64,000 nt of DNA from an uncultured Pelagibacteraceae bacterium. Its GTDB lineage: Bacteria > Pseudomonadota > Alphaproteobacteria > Pelagibacterales > Pelagibacteraceae. Below the pieces are notes generated by a model. The model worked only from the letters and a program-made list of their open reading frames with translations. It was not told the origin of the DNA and made no database searches. Each line of letters starts with the position of its first letter. Positions within the stretch are counted from its first letter, which is position 1. Where the stretch lies: NCBI GenBank assembly GCA_902620525.1, contig CACNIK010000002.1:62001-126000 (forward strand), in the 5' to 3' direction. The position numbers and the translations under genes are program-made. Of this stretch, positions 30,409 to 49,455 are shown piece after piece.

Positions 30409-31476
30409 TTATTTTTGTGTAATAAACTTTTGTCTAAGACTATCAATTAGAACAGTTGATCCATTAAAATTATAATGCCAATAAGTCCAACCATTACAGC
30501 TTTCAGCACCCATTATTTTTGCGGCTACTTTATGGATTGAACCTTCGGACTCTTTATATTTTATACTTCCATCTGCCATTATTTTTGCGTTAATTTTTTT
30601 CTTAGCATCAAATAGAGATGTTCCTGGCTTTAACATTCCTAATTCTACAAGTGAGCCAAATGGTATTCTCGGTTTTGACTTGTTATTTTTTATTGTATCA
30701 AGATAACTATCATTAATGACTTTTGTATTTTTAATTCTTTCGTAAGCAGCATTAAAATATTTTTTCTCTTTCTCTATCCCGTAGTAATTTCTCCCTAATT
30801 TTTTTGCAACAACAGCTGTTGTTCCGGTACCTAAAAAGGGGTCAAAAATGCTATCCCCTTTATTTGTAGTAGCTAGTATAATTCTATGAATTAATGCTTC
30901 TGGTTTTTGGGTAGAATGAACTTTTTTTCCATTTTTCTTCAATCTCTCCTTTCCATTACAAATTGGAAATACCCAATCGGACCTCATCTGCAAATCATCA
31001 TTTAAACACTTTAAAGACTGATAATTAAACGTATATTTTGACTTTTTATCTTTTGATGCCCAAATAAGAGTTTCGTGAGCATTTGTAAATCTAGTACCTT
31101 TAAAGTTAGGCATTGGATTGTTTTTTCTCCAAATTATATCATTAAGAAGCCAGAAATTTAAATTTTGTAAGTGGTAACCCAAACGAAAAATATTATGATA
31201 AGAACCTATGACCCAAATGCTTCCATTTTCTTTTAAAGTCCTTTTACATTCCGTAAGCCATGTTTTACAGAAATCATCATAATCTTTAAAGCTTTTAAAC
31301 TGATCCCATTTATCTTTTACTCCATTTACTTTGCTTGTGTCCGGCCGAGTTAATTTTTCTCCTATTTGCAAATTGTAAGGAGGGTCGGCAAAAATTAAAT
31401 TGAATGAATTATCTGGAATTTTTTTTAATTCTTTTAAACAATCTCCGTTTATAATTTTATTGAGAAACTTTAACAT
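30409..31476 (-). CDS. ccrM: Adenine-specific DNA methyltransferase CcrM (GANTC type)
   Basis: From the ATG at 31476 the protein has 355 residues. The catalytic motif DPPYNL is at about 35-40, and the AdoMet motif FDPFLGTGTTAVVAKKLG lies C-terminally, the beta-class order. The extra C-terminal domain of about 80 residues (LVELGMLKPGTSLFDAKKKINA through AESCNGWTYWHYN) is the one that distinguishes CcrM from HinfI-like enzymes. CcrM methylates GANTC and times the alphaproteobacterial cell cycle. A TTG at 31488 could add four residues, but it lies inside the candidate promoter, so ATG 31476 is chosen. Confidence 0.94.
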   Translation of the reverse strand: MLKFLNKIINGDCLKELKKIPDNSFNLIFADPPYNLQIGEKLTRPDTSKVNGVKDKWDQFKSFKDYDDFCKTWLTECKRTLKENGSIWVIGSYHNIFRLGYHLQNLNFWLLNDIIWRKNNPMPNFKGTRFTNAHETLIWASKDKKSKYTFNYQSLKCLNDDLQMRSDWVFPICNGKERLKKNGKKVHSTQKPEALIHRIILATTNKGDSIFDPFLGTGTTAVVAKKLGRNYYGIEKEKKYFNAAYERIKNTKVINDSYLDTIKNNKSKPRIPFGSLVELGMLKPGTSLFDAKKKINAKIMADGSIKYKESEGSIHKVAAKIMGAESCNGWTYWHYNFNGSTVLIDSLRQKFITQK

Positions 31477-31480
31477 TTTT

Positions 31481-31511
31481 AGATTCAACCTTAAATTGAA
31501 TCTCAGGTCAA
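31481..31511 (-). promoter_or_regulatory. Candidate ccrM promoter with GANTC inverted repeat
   Basis: On the minus strand TTGACC (31506-31511) is followed after 17 bases by TTGAAT (31483-31488), a plausible sigma-70 pair whose start point would fall on the A of the ccrM ATG (31476). An inverted repeat with 8-base arms, AGATTCAA (31481-31488) and TTGAATCT (31496-31503), separated by 7 bases, overlaps it. Each arm contains one GANTC site (31482-31486 and 31498-31502), the expected CcrM target. This suggests methylation-sensitive self-regulation. Confidence 0.55.
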
Positions 31512-31553
31512 TTATTTTTACGTGAAAAAAAAAGTTTTTTAGTTGGATTAAAA

Positions 31554-32135
31554 TTATTTTAACAACATCTTGTGTATTGGATTAAAATTCTTTCTATGCA
31601 TTGTGGTTAATCCATATTTTTTCAATCCCATAATATGTTGTTTAGTTCCGTATCCAAAGTTTTTATTCCAATTATAATTTTTGAATTTTTTTGACATTCT
31701 TATCATTATTTTATCTCTGTAAACCTTTGCAAGAATAGAAGCTGCACTAATACACTTAATTTTTTCATCTCCTTTAATGACGGTCTTACATTTATATAAA
31801 ATTTTAGGGGCAAAAATACCGTCTACTAAGACTAAATCTGGCTTTTTAGATAAACTTAAAATAGCTCTTTTCATAGACAATAGTGATGCTTGCAAAATAT
31901 TTAATTTTTCAATTTCTTTGACTGTAGCAACTCCAATTGAAAACAAAGATTTATTTTTGATATCTTTTGAAATTTCTATTCTTTGTTTAAAAGTGAGTTT
32001 TTTAGAGTCTTTTAAGTTTTTAATTAGTGCACCTTTTTTTAAAATTACTGCTGCAGAAACAACCGGCCCAGCCAAGCATCCTCTCCCGACTTCATCGACA
32101 CCAGCAATAATTTTATTTTTTGTAAATCTTTTCAA
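31554..32135 (-). CDS. rnhB: Ribonuclease HII
   Basis: 193 residues with AGVDEVGRGCLAGPV at 11-25 carrying the catalytic D14 and E15, VLVDG for the third acid, and AASILAKVYRD for the fourth. It cleaves at ribonucleotides embedded in DNA and in RNA-DNA hybrids. In alphaproteobacteria rnhB is commonly next to ccrM, as here. It overlaps the UDG gene by 4 bases. A 12-base direct repeat TTGGATTAAAAT occurs at its stop codon and again 34 bases further in. Confidence 0.95.
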   Translation of the reverse strand: MKRFTKNKIIAGVDEVGRGCLAGPVVSAAVILKKGALIKNLKDSKKLTFKQRIEISKDIKNKSLFSIGVATVKEIEKLNILQASLLSMKRAILSLSKKPDLVLVDGIFAPKILYKCKTVIKGDEKIKCISAASILAKVYRDKIMIRMSKKFKNYNWNKNFGYGTKQHIMGLKKYGLTTMHRKNFNPIHKMLLK

Positions 32136-47263: not shown

Positions 47264-47503
47264 GTGTCAGACAAAGAAAAAATATTAAAAACTCTATCAA
47301 GCTTGTTAGAAACTGGAATTTTGACTGTAAATGATGTCAAAAAGGAACTTACAACTAACTTAAAATTTAAAAAAGATAGTATTGTTAATAAATTAAATCT
47401 TGTTTCTAGAGAAGAGTTTGAAATACTTAAAAAGCTAGTGGAAACACAAGATGCAAAAATCAAAAAATTGTTAAAAAAAACTAAAAAGGCAAAGAAATCT
47501 TAA
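47264..47503 (+). CDS. ubiK: UbiK-family accessory factor (BMFP domain)
   Basis: 79 residues starting at GTG (47264). The first half matches the YqiC/UbiK/BMFP pattern, with helix LLETGILTVNDVKKEL. A C-terminal coiled coil, LVSREEFEILKKLVETQDAKIKKL, ends in a lysine-rich tail. UbiK assists the ubiquinone-biosynthesis complex and forms coiled-coil trimers that bind lipids. The gene is alone on its strand, and its last 23 bases overlap the end of the convergent histidine kinase gene. Confidence 0.82.
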   Translation: MSDKEKILKTLSSLLETGILTVNDVKKELTTNLKFKKDSIVNKLNLVSREEFEILKKLVETQDAKIKKLLKKTKKAKKS

Positions 47504-48800
47504 CTTGCAAACCACCCAATTCACTTTTTGATAACTGAATGTTTCCTCCATGAGAATGGACAATATCTTCAACTATTGCTAAACCCAAACCTACTCCAGA
47601 CTTGTTTAAACTTCTACTTTTATCAAGCCTAAAAAAAGGTTTAAAAACGTTTCTGTAATGTTCAGGAGGAATACCAGGTCCGTCATCATCAAATAAAATT
47701 ACTGCTCTATTAGAACTTTTTTGTACAGTAATATTTATTTTTTCTCCATACATTAGACTGTTGTTTATAACATTGGAAAAACATCTTTGAAGTGCATTCT
47801 TTCTTCCATAAAAAGAAACATCACTTTCAATTTTTACATTTACATTTGAATTTTTAATTCTTTTCTCAATAATATTAAATAAATCTTTTAAACTAACTTT
47901 TTCAGTATTTTCTTTAGCTTGAGTCTTAGCGAATTGAAGGTAATCGTTTAACATATTTTCCATCTCATCTATATCTTTAGACATATTACCTGAAATATTT
48001 TTGTCGCTGACCATTGCTAATTGTAGCTTTAATCTTGTAAGTGGTGTTCGTAAATCATGACTTATGCCAGAAAGCATTTCAGATCGTTGATTTAAATGTC
48101 TATTTATTCTTTTTGCCATTCTATCAAACTCATAAGCAGCATTTCTTATTTCTCTAGCGCCAGACGGTCTAAATTCATTTATATAGTCTCCTTTACCAAA
48201 TCTCTGAGCTGCTTTAGCTAAATTAGTAAGTGGCTTGGTTTGATTTTTTAAAAAAAGTATTGCTATAAGAATAAGAATAATAGAAGGCAATGTTATCCAT
48301 AAAACAAACAGTCGAACAGAAGATGTCGCTATTCTCTCTTTTGGAAAGAAAAATTGTAAATGTTTGTTTCCTGATCTTATTCTTACTTCAACAATATCTA
48401 GATAATTTACTGTATTAAACCAGTAGTTATCATTTCCAAAGGTCGACTTTAATTCACGTCTAAGAGATCTATCCATAGGACTAAATCTTCTTTCGAAAAC
48501 TTCTTTAGGAATTTTTTCGTCTATGGTGTTAATAACAAAGTCAAAATTTTTCTTATAAATATCAGTTAAGTAATTAATTTGGTTTTTATTGTCAGAATTG
48601 TAAACGTCGCTTAAAGTTTTAATTTCGCCTACAAGCGATCTAGTCATTCCTTTGTTGGCCTTAATCCATATACTGTCAAAAAAAACAATAGTCACGATTA
48701 ATTGTAAAAGAATTGTAGGGGCCGCAACAATTATTAATGATCTATAAAATAAACCTTTTGGTAAAAATCTTTTAAAAAAATTATTCAATCCAGAGAACAT
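47481..48800 (-). CDS. EnvZ-like sensor histidine kinase
   Basis: 439 residues: two membrane helices (about 23-43 and 163-184) flanking a periplasmic sensor of about 120 residues, a HAMP segment (about 185-235), the phospho-acceptor H248 in GISHDLRTPLTRLK, and an ATPase domain with the N-box NNSLMYG, the DDDGPGIPPE loop and GVGLGLAIVEDIV. The input signal cannot be read from sequence. It overlaps the response regulator gene by 20 bases, so the two form a cognate pair. Confidence 0.93.
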   Translation of the reverse strand: MFSGLNNFFKRFLPKGLFYRSLIIVAAPTILLQLIVTIVFFDSIWIKANKGMTRSLVGEIKTLSDVYNSDNKNQINYLTDIYKKNFDFVINTIDEKIPKEVFERRFSPMDRSLRRELKSTFGNDNYWFNTVNYLDIVEVRIRSGNKHLQFFFPKERIATSSVRLFVLWITLPSIILILIAILFLKNQTKPLTNLAKAAQRFGKGDYINEFRPSGAREIRNAAYEFDRMAKRINRHLNQRSEMLSGISHDLRTPLTRLKLQLAMVSDKNISGNMSKDIDEMENMLNDYLQFAKTQAKENTEKVSLKDLFNIIEKRIKNSNVNVKIESDVSFYGRKNALQRCFSNVINNSLMYGEKINITVQKSSNRAVILFDDDGPGIPPEHYRNVFKPFFRLDKSRSLNKSGVGLGLAIVEDIVHSHGGNIQLSKSELGGLQVKISLPF

Positions 48801-49455
48801 AGCCTGAGCCCCTTATAGTTTGTAAGTATTTCGGATTTTTTGGATTTACCTCAATTTTTTGTCTTAAACGAGTAATCATTACATCAATAGATCTTTCCTG
48901 CGATATTCCAGATATATCACCAATTTGAGATCTTGAGTAAGTTTTTCCAGGATTAGATAACATTTCTATTAAAATTTTCTTTTCAGTTACATTAATCTTT
49001 CTCTCAGAACTATTTAATTTTATTACCATTTTATTTAAGTCAATAACAGCTTCACCTACTGAATATTTTTTTTCAAGGTCTATCTTAATATTTTTTGAAA
49101 TAATATTATTTATTCTCAAAAGAAGCTCTTTAGGCTCAAATGGTTTACCAATATAATCGTCCGCTCCTAGTTCTAGACCTTTAATTCTATTTTCAACCTC
49201 CCCTTTGGCCGTAAGTAAAATGATAGGCGGACAATTGTCACTTTTAATTTCTTTTACAAGTTCATAACCATTTTGGCCAGGCATCATAACGTCAAGAACA
49301 ATTAAATCAAATTTAAAATGGCTCAACTTAATTTTGGCTTCCTCTGAATTTGAAGCTGTAGAAACAACAAAATGTTTTTCGTTTAGATACTCTTTTAGAA
49401 GACTTCTTATACGATCGTCATCATCCACTACTAAGATATGATTTAAATTATCCAT
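48781..49455 (-). CDS. OmpR/PetR-type response regulator
   Basis: 224 residues. The receiver domain carries acidic residues D11-D13, phospho-acceptor D55 in LIVLDVMMPG and the switch lysine in LLTAKG. The winged-helix domain follows (about 125-224, ending GSGYVLWIE). It is an OmpR-family DNA-binding regulator paired with the adjacent kinase. Together with the upstream marR gene and the neighbouring ilvE it recalls the petP-petR locus described in Rhodobacter, where both affect bc1 synthesis. That link is an inference here. Confidence 0.93.
   Translation of the reverse strand: MDNLNHILVVDDDDRIRSLLKEYLNEKHFVVSTASNSEEAKIKLSHFKFDLIVLDVMMPGQNGYELVKEIKSDNCPPIILLTAKGEVENRIKGLELGADDYIGKPFEPKELLLRINNIISKNIKIDLEKKYSVGEAVIDLNKMVIKLNSSERKINVTEKKILIEMLSNPGKTYSRSQIGDISGISQERSIDVMITRLRQKIEVNPKNPKYLQTIRGSGYVLWIE

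Follow-up and report, generated by a model that had tools for sequence, protein, structure and literature searches.

A predicted near-leaderless ccrM promoter of Pelagibacterales that may sense methylation by its own gene product

Does the methyltransferase CcrM govern its own synthesis in SAR11 bacteria by marking the promoter of its own gene? SAR11 cells rank among the most numerous in the ocean and possess few regulators. Both CcrM and GcrA are widespread in Pelagibacterales (matched in 226 and 231 of 248 genomes, respectively), and a promoter that reads the mark of CcrM itself would show a streamlined cell timing methylation to replication without CtrA. The question is raised by one stretch of 64,000 nt (the window) from an uncultured Pelagibacteraceae bacterium (GCA_902620525.1, contig CACNIK010000002.1, positions 62,001-126,000 of the forward strand). 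A preliminary description had placed TTGACC-N17-TTGAAT directly before the ccrM ATG, together with an 8-base inverted repeat that sets one GANTC in the spacer and another over the -10. Both are present, the former on the minus strand and ending 6 nt before the ATG, and the comparison with relatives reported below confirms and strengthens this observation. The features of the locus are as follows.

30409-31476, minus strand: ccrM, 355 aa, GANTC adenine methyltransferase (family profile and structure match)
31477-31482, minus strand: 6-nt gap (CTAAAA) from the -10 to the ATG (31476-31474); transcription is proposed to begin at the ATG or beside it (sequence)
31481-31503, no strand assigned: inverted repeat AGATTCAA-N7-TTGAATCT, with 8-bp arms at 31481-31488 and 31496-31503
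31482-31486, minus strand: GANTC site 2 (GAATC on this strand), overlapping the -10 (site scan)
31483-31488, minus strand: putative -10 TTGAAT, N17 from the -35, also the right-arm core of the dyad (sequence)
31483-31501, no strand assigned: core dyad ATTCAA-N7-TTGAAT, the conserved inner part of the inverted repeat
31498-31502, minus strand: GANTC site 1 (GATTC on this strand), in the -35/-10 spacer (site scan)
31506-31511, minus strand: -35 element TTGACC of ccrM (sequence and conserved TTGAC)
31554-32135, minus strand: rnhB (ribonuclease HII), upstream of ccrM on the same strand and 77 nt away

The ccrM product has the CcrM model NF050803 as its top NCBIfam match (570.7 bits, under the model cut-off of 830) and aligns with PDB 6pbd, named CcrMI, at E=2.6e-135. 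Its putative -10 has four of the six consensus bases and is without the usual second A, and we take it to be a weak one. The ATTCAA and TTGAAT core arms contain all four adenines that CcrM would methylate, and the sole bases of the two sites outside these arms are the outer G of the first and the outer C of the second. These two outer bases would decide whether each arm of the dyad is methylatable.

The conservation of this layout can be judged from 161 ccrM loci of Pelagibacterales, which reduce to 134 distinct upstream regions after removal of one locus with a GTG and no ATG (L180), one partial locus (L194), and 25 with a repeated, identical 100-nt upstream sequence. The loci come from the best 30 matches of a genus search with matches in 136 of 169 genomes, the best 80 of 340, the best 30 of an order search (the one matching 226 of 248 genomes), and 30 of 30 chosen genomes. 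The 134 regions are related and not independent, as many loci are the same genomes under different names and only identical upstream sequences were merged. In two loci (L184 and L187), neither of them of the window's type, the start codon is annotated too far downstream.

All 134 regions have a single TTGAC in the 75 nt that precede ccrM. The hexamer at N17 is TTGAAT in 83 of them, T[CT]TA[ATC]T in 40, and something else in 11. Between 0 and 30 nt from TTGAC, which we treat as the core promoter, there is at least one GANTC in 127/134 regions and at least two in 80/134, with none in the other 7. The 83 regions that share the window's layout (type A) have TTGAC-N18-TTGAAT with GANTCs at offsets 9 and 25. 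They were selected with TTGAC-N18-TTGAA, and selecting on the one TTGAC together with the hexamer at N17 returns the identical 83. The 40 regions of types B and C have TCTAAT or a similar -10, and in 36 of these a GAGTC at offset 20 abuts or overlaps it; the type C regions mostly have an extra spacer GANTC, and type B includes 14 regions that are one base off the B pattern, besides 6 regions of genera g2 and g5. The remaining 11 regions, from a second family (f2) and from genus g4, have GANTCs at offsets 8 to 10 and/or 19. A second candidate -10 exists in types B, C and f2, namely a TANNNN hexamer at N19 that rivals the one at N17. Core GANTCs occur in 8/9 genera and in both families sampled, and they are absent from g2 (2 regions). 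From these alignments, the 16-bp double-GANTC layout is one lineage's version, with different registers in other genera and in the second family. Some loci of the same genus (L011, L012, L016 and others) carry a second GAATC/GACTC pair approximately 40-80 nt before the ccrM ATG and after the rnhB stop. This pair is found in some members of the genus; neither the window nor its nearest relatives have it.

Within type A, the dyad ATTCAA-N7-TTGAAT is kept in 82/83 regions, whereas site 1 (judged by its outer G) is kept in 73/83 and site 2 (by its outer C) in 60/83. Conservation in close relatives had been set beforehand as a test of the preliminary description. Promoter and dyad are indeed conserved, as is the short spacing to the start codon, but the two GANTCs are not both required: type A regions have both in 53 cases, one in 27 and none in 3. 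These proportions approximate independent loss, so there is no sign among the 83 regions that at least one GANTC must stay, and for the same reason we rejected the idea that one site compensates for loss of the other. When changes are counted on the CcrM tree, every TTGAC and GTTGAAT column of type A has 0 changes, the ATTCAATTT columns have 0 except for one column with 1, and each dyad arm column has 0 to 1. A T-run and an A-run farther upstream hardly vary either. The outer G changes 9 times and the outer C 6 times, compared with mostly 11 to 30 for ordinary columns, several of which have 8-12, so that these two bases stand only at the low end of the ordinary range. Base identity at the outer G and C is a better sign of the putative selection than these tree counts: variable core columns are 12% G and 15% C, against the 73/83 and 60/83 given above. 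The identities thus exceed the column background, suggesting that methylatable ends are favoured and less strictly kept than the dyad.

The difference between the two levels of conservation has a further implication. Because the dyad persists in nearly every type A region while both GANTCs persist in fewer than two-thirds, the dyad seems to be under constraint in its own right, and since both it and the -10 are more conserved than the GANTCs, the latter may partly be a by-product. A similar pattern is seen in types B and C, where the inner bases of the -10 GANTC are mostly retained in 4 regions that lack the outer G; as these bases are retained despite loss of the site, they are under constraint for some other reason.

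The evidence for the predicted promoter layout is this conservation in relatives, rather than chance statistics. Inverted repeats with 8-bp arms and loops of 3-10 nt number 33 in the window compared with a mean of 38.4 in 40 dinucleotide shuffles. An inverted repeat with a GANTC in its arm occurs once in the window, in the ccrM promoter (shuffle mean 0.15 per 64 kb), and so does TTGAC-N2-5-GANTC-N5-12-GANTC when both strands are searched (shuffle mean 0.075). GANTC itself is depleted in the window, with 103 sites where dinucleotide shuffles predict 158. Throughout the window's own genome, two GANTCs at the offset seen in the ccrM promoter occur in 3 places, fewer than the 7 of a backwards-read control, and this offset alone is therefore not notable. 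When TTGAC in register is added to the two GANTCs, the ccrM promoter is the sole match without a mismatch in its own genome; with up to 3 mismatches, the TTGAC-anchored pattern is rarer than in the control (61 and 65 versus 91 and 96). Across 15 genomes, TTGAC plus two GANTCs has 17 matches, 13 of them at ccrM. The other 4 give no indication of further promoters of this kind in these genomes, given 8 matches in the backwards-read control.

The position of the promoter relative to the gene suggests that its transcripts are nearly leaderless. In type A, the -10 is separated from the ATG by 6 nt (37/83) or 7 nt (46/83), and TTGAC lies 35 or 36 nt from the ATG in 83/83. Such spacing is compatible with transcription that begins at the ATG or beside it. 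The distance from the rnhB stop to TTGAC spans 19-48 nt, but it is 41-44 nt in 75/83 type A regions, and because this upstream spacing is also fairly constant, the fixed distance to the ATG is only suggestive. The distance to the ATG is also short in types C and f2, and it is longer in type B. In f2, the ccrM start codon (GTG in L180) follows a TATTAT-like hexamer at N19 by only about 4-6 nt, a spacing that also suggests leaderless transcripts. An in-frame upstream TTG (31488) was considered as the start codon of ccrM and rejected, as the gap of 6 nt in 37 regions and 7 nt in 46 means that the same TTG is not in frame in both groups. Motifs resembling Shine-Dalgarno sequences are found upstream of 6/62 ORFs in the window, compared with 6 in a reversed control and 1 in a far-upstream control.

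A protein that could read the methylation state of such a promoter is encoded elsewhere in the same genome. GcrA is matched there by PF07750 with 140.5 bits (E=4.1e-41), and since a control search with this family also matches in Sulfolobus, PF07750 alone is not fully specific for GcrA. Residues 1-146, including both N- and C-terminal parts, also align with the GcrA of PDB 7ye1 (E=1.5e-27), which we take to be Caulobacter GcrA with RNA polymerase. The 17 of 248 Pelagibacterales genomes without a GcrA match are rated 86-99% complete. Among the seven regions without a core GANTC, five (L125, L173, L175, L179 and L181) are from GcrA-positive genomes. Four of these loci (L173, L175, L179 and L181) belong to genera g2 and g5, and two other g5 loci, L174 and L193, keep one core GANTC.

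A different result was obtained for CtrA. The window's genome, which is 96% complete, has four OmpR-class regulators by PF00486, and none of them reaches the cut-off of 350 for the NCBIfam CtrA model, whose name refers to Rhodobacterales; three score 105.6, 139.4 and 25.9 bits, and the fourth does not have CtrA among its top 25 matches. The one TTAA-N7-TTAA sequence in the 200 nt before ccrM, which resembles a CtrA box, lies across the rnhB stop (31548-31562) and is of a kind prone to arise by chance in AT-rich DNA. A histidine kinase, so assigned by reading alone, is paired with an OmpR-class response regulator at 47481-49455 on the minus strand of the window. The literature, including PMC7987155, likewise reports Ca. 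P. ubique or Pelagibacter to be without ctrA. As none of these four regulators qualifies as CtrA by score, the arrangement is not simply a compressed form of the Caulobacter circuit, as the preliminary description had proposed, and the interpretation given in that description is, as a whole, partly supported.

We interpret the locus, with moderate confidence, as a near-leaderless, methylation-sensed autoregulatory promoter of the sigma70 type, with GcrA as its likely reader. The SAR11 ccrM promoter usually carries CcrM target sites, so CcrM probably senses and adjusts its own production. If the promoter is active as its sequence predicts, the ccrM message would begin at the start codon or no more than a few bases away from it. 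Once the replication fork has passed, the promoter sites would be hemimethylated, and in this state ccrM would be transcribed while GcrA, or some other protein that binds the dyad, assists RNA polymerase. The CcrM made would then restore full methylation, which would lower ccrM transcription again. We infer this sign of the feedback by analogy with ctrA P1, and that hemimethylated DNA is the active state is a guess. The ccrM gene lies approximately 0.27-0.28 Mb from dnaA in three complete g3 genomes (G179, G181 and G188) and approximately 0.39 Mb from it in G169; dnaA serves here as a stand-in for the origin, and we base no claim about timing on these distances. According to PMC9516812, nearly all GANTCs of Pelagibacter are methylated in one culture (3477/3482), with less methylation near the origin. 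The natural variants, with both arms, one arm or no arm methylatable and the dyad fixed, offer a ready-made test series.

The main rival to this interpretation is favoured by the stricter conservation of the dyad. The dyad could be the operator of another dimeric regulator that overlaps the core promoter, in which case the GANTCs would be secondary or would tune the binding of that regulator, and GcrA would have no direct part. We regard this as possible, if unlikely. It would account for a dyad core kept in all but one type A region when both GANTCs are not, and for the fact that 127/134 regions have TTCWA-N7-TTGA in the 95 nt before ccrM (single-base shuffle rate 0.0023), at positions that differ relative to the core promoter. 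Against it, the right arm of this sequence is the -35 itself in types C and f2, so that the match is partly promoter and the plain shuffle overstates its significance. The genomic distribution of the dyad can be read in both directions. Its exact sequence occurs in 15 places in 17 genomes, and 10 of these are the ccrM promoter, but the other 5 are fewer than the 8 of the control. A relaxed pattern reveals no dyad regulon in the window's own genome, with 8 forward and 5 reverse matches versus 8 and 9 in the control, and no candidate for the regulator emerged.

A dedicated dimeric regulator bound to ATTCAA-N7-TTGAAT over the -10, with its binding set by CcrM methylation of both arms, would constitute a self-contained epigenetic switch, a proposal unlikely enough that we offer it as speculation. 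There is a parallel in the pap and agn43 switches of E. coli. If true, CcrM's own mark would latch ccrM, or time it once per replication, and sensitivity to methylation could be tuned through the outer G or C alone while the operator stays fixed.

It is quite improbable that the sequence is an ordinary constitutive promoter, in which the invariant bases are contacts of the core promoter or discriminator and the GANTCs and repeat are coincidental or inherited. This explanation draws on the abundance of 8-bp inverted repeats in AT-rich DNA, as counted above for the window, on the repeated loss of single GANTCs, and on the fact that a plain promoter adjoining the ATG would also fix the spacing. 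It does not account for core GANTCs that recur in several registers across nearly all genera and both families despite the depletion of GANTC in the window, and to our knowledge a plain sigma70 promoter would not be expected to have an invariant ATTCAATTT in its spacer. Least probable is an RNA element, in which a hairpin before the ATG limits ccrM translation in transcripts that read through from rnhB: the minus-strand RNA of 31474-31515 does fold into a 10-bp stem (-8.5 kcal/mol, z -2.75, with 2/200 shuffles as stable), and purines at right-half columns 20 and 21 in 82/83 and 83/83 rows keep U-A or U-G pairing, but a promoter inside the repeat would leave the repeat untranscribed from that promoter, the type C repeat sits at the -35, and the stem columns are invariant or nearly so, which leaves covariation beyond judgement.

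The proposed methylation-sensed ccrM promoter would work like the GcrA/CcrM promoters of Caulobacter crescentus. Those of ctrA P1, mipZ and podJ likewise have a GANTC in or near the -35/-10 region, as described in PMC3667746 and PMC4287350, and both C. crescentus and the SAR11 genome encode GcrA and CcrM. In PMC3667746, GcrA is described as dimeric and as drawn to methylated GANTC; its footprint on ctrA P1 is narrow on hemimethylated and wide on fully methylated DNA. In PMC4287350, GANTCs between the -35 and -10 of Caulobacter promoters mark start sites active at 40-60 min, and a GANTC lies within 50 bp at only 31% of GcrA-bound cell-cycle start sites. The SAR11 promoter differs from these in having two sites at opposite ends of a dyad, one of them over the -10, and in having ccrM as its gene; GcrA dependence is putative here. 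Neither of its GANTCs fits the extended Caulobacter GcrA motif YGAKTCK on either strand, which is why we compare it with these promoters and do not call it a member of their group. We do not treat the motif as defining; it is a species preference that is not seen in B. subvibrioides.

The ccrM gene of Caulobacter offers a second comparison. Its methylation feedback is called most probable in the introduction of PMC3973325, and what it would share with SAR11 is that the methylation carried out by CcrM probably affects expression of ccrM. In Caulobacter, CtrA activates ccrM, according to PMC3667746, whereas the SAR11 genome yielded four regulators, none with a CtrA-level score, and the SAR11 sites are inside the core promoter, with the start codon 6-7 nt from the -10. 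A likeness also exists to the locally hypomethylated GANTC promoters occluded by MucR (PMC5172544), where a DNA-binding protein is set against CcrM at promoter GANTCs; such a competition is hypothetical in SAR11, and its target would be ccrM.

A further precedent is a published prediction with the same gene and the same proposed reader. PMC7987155 predicts ccrM to be a core GcrA target across alphaproteobacterial orders, based on 13 species that include Ca. Pelagibacter ubique. Motif content was scored there from -200 to +100 regardless of the position of sites within the promoter, few P. ubique orthologues have a high probability, and section 11 of that paper contains no promoter architecture. 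The geometry of the SAR11 ccrM promoter, its dyad and its near-leaderless position were not found in print by a search that reached few subscription papers. Since ccrM has already been predicted in print as a GcrA target, the regulatory idea is not new, and what is added here is this geometry, the dyad and the near-leaderless position of the SAR11 promoter.
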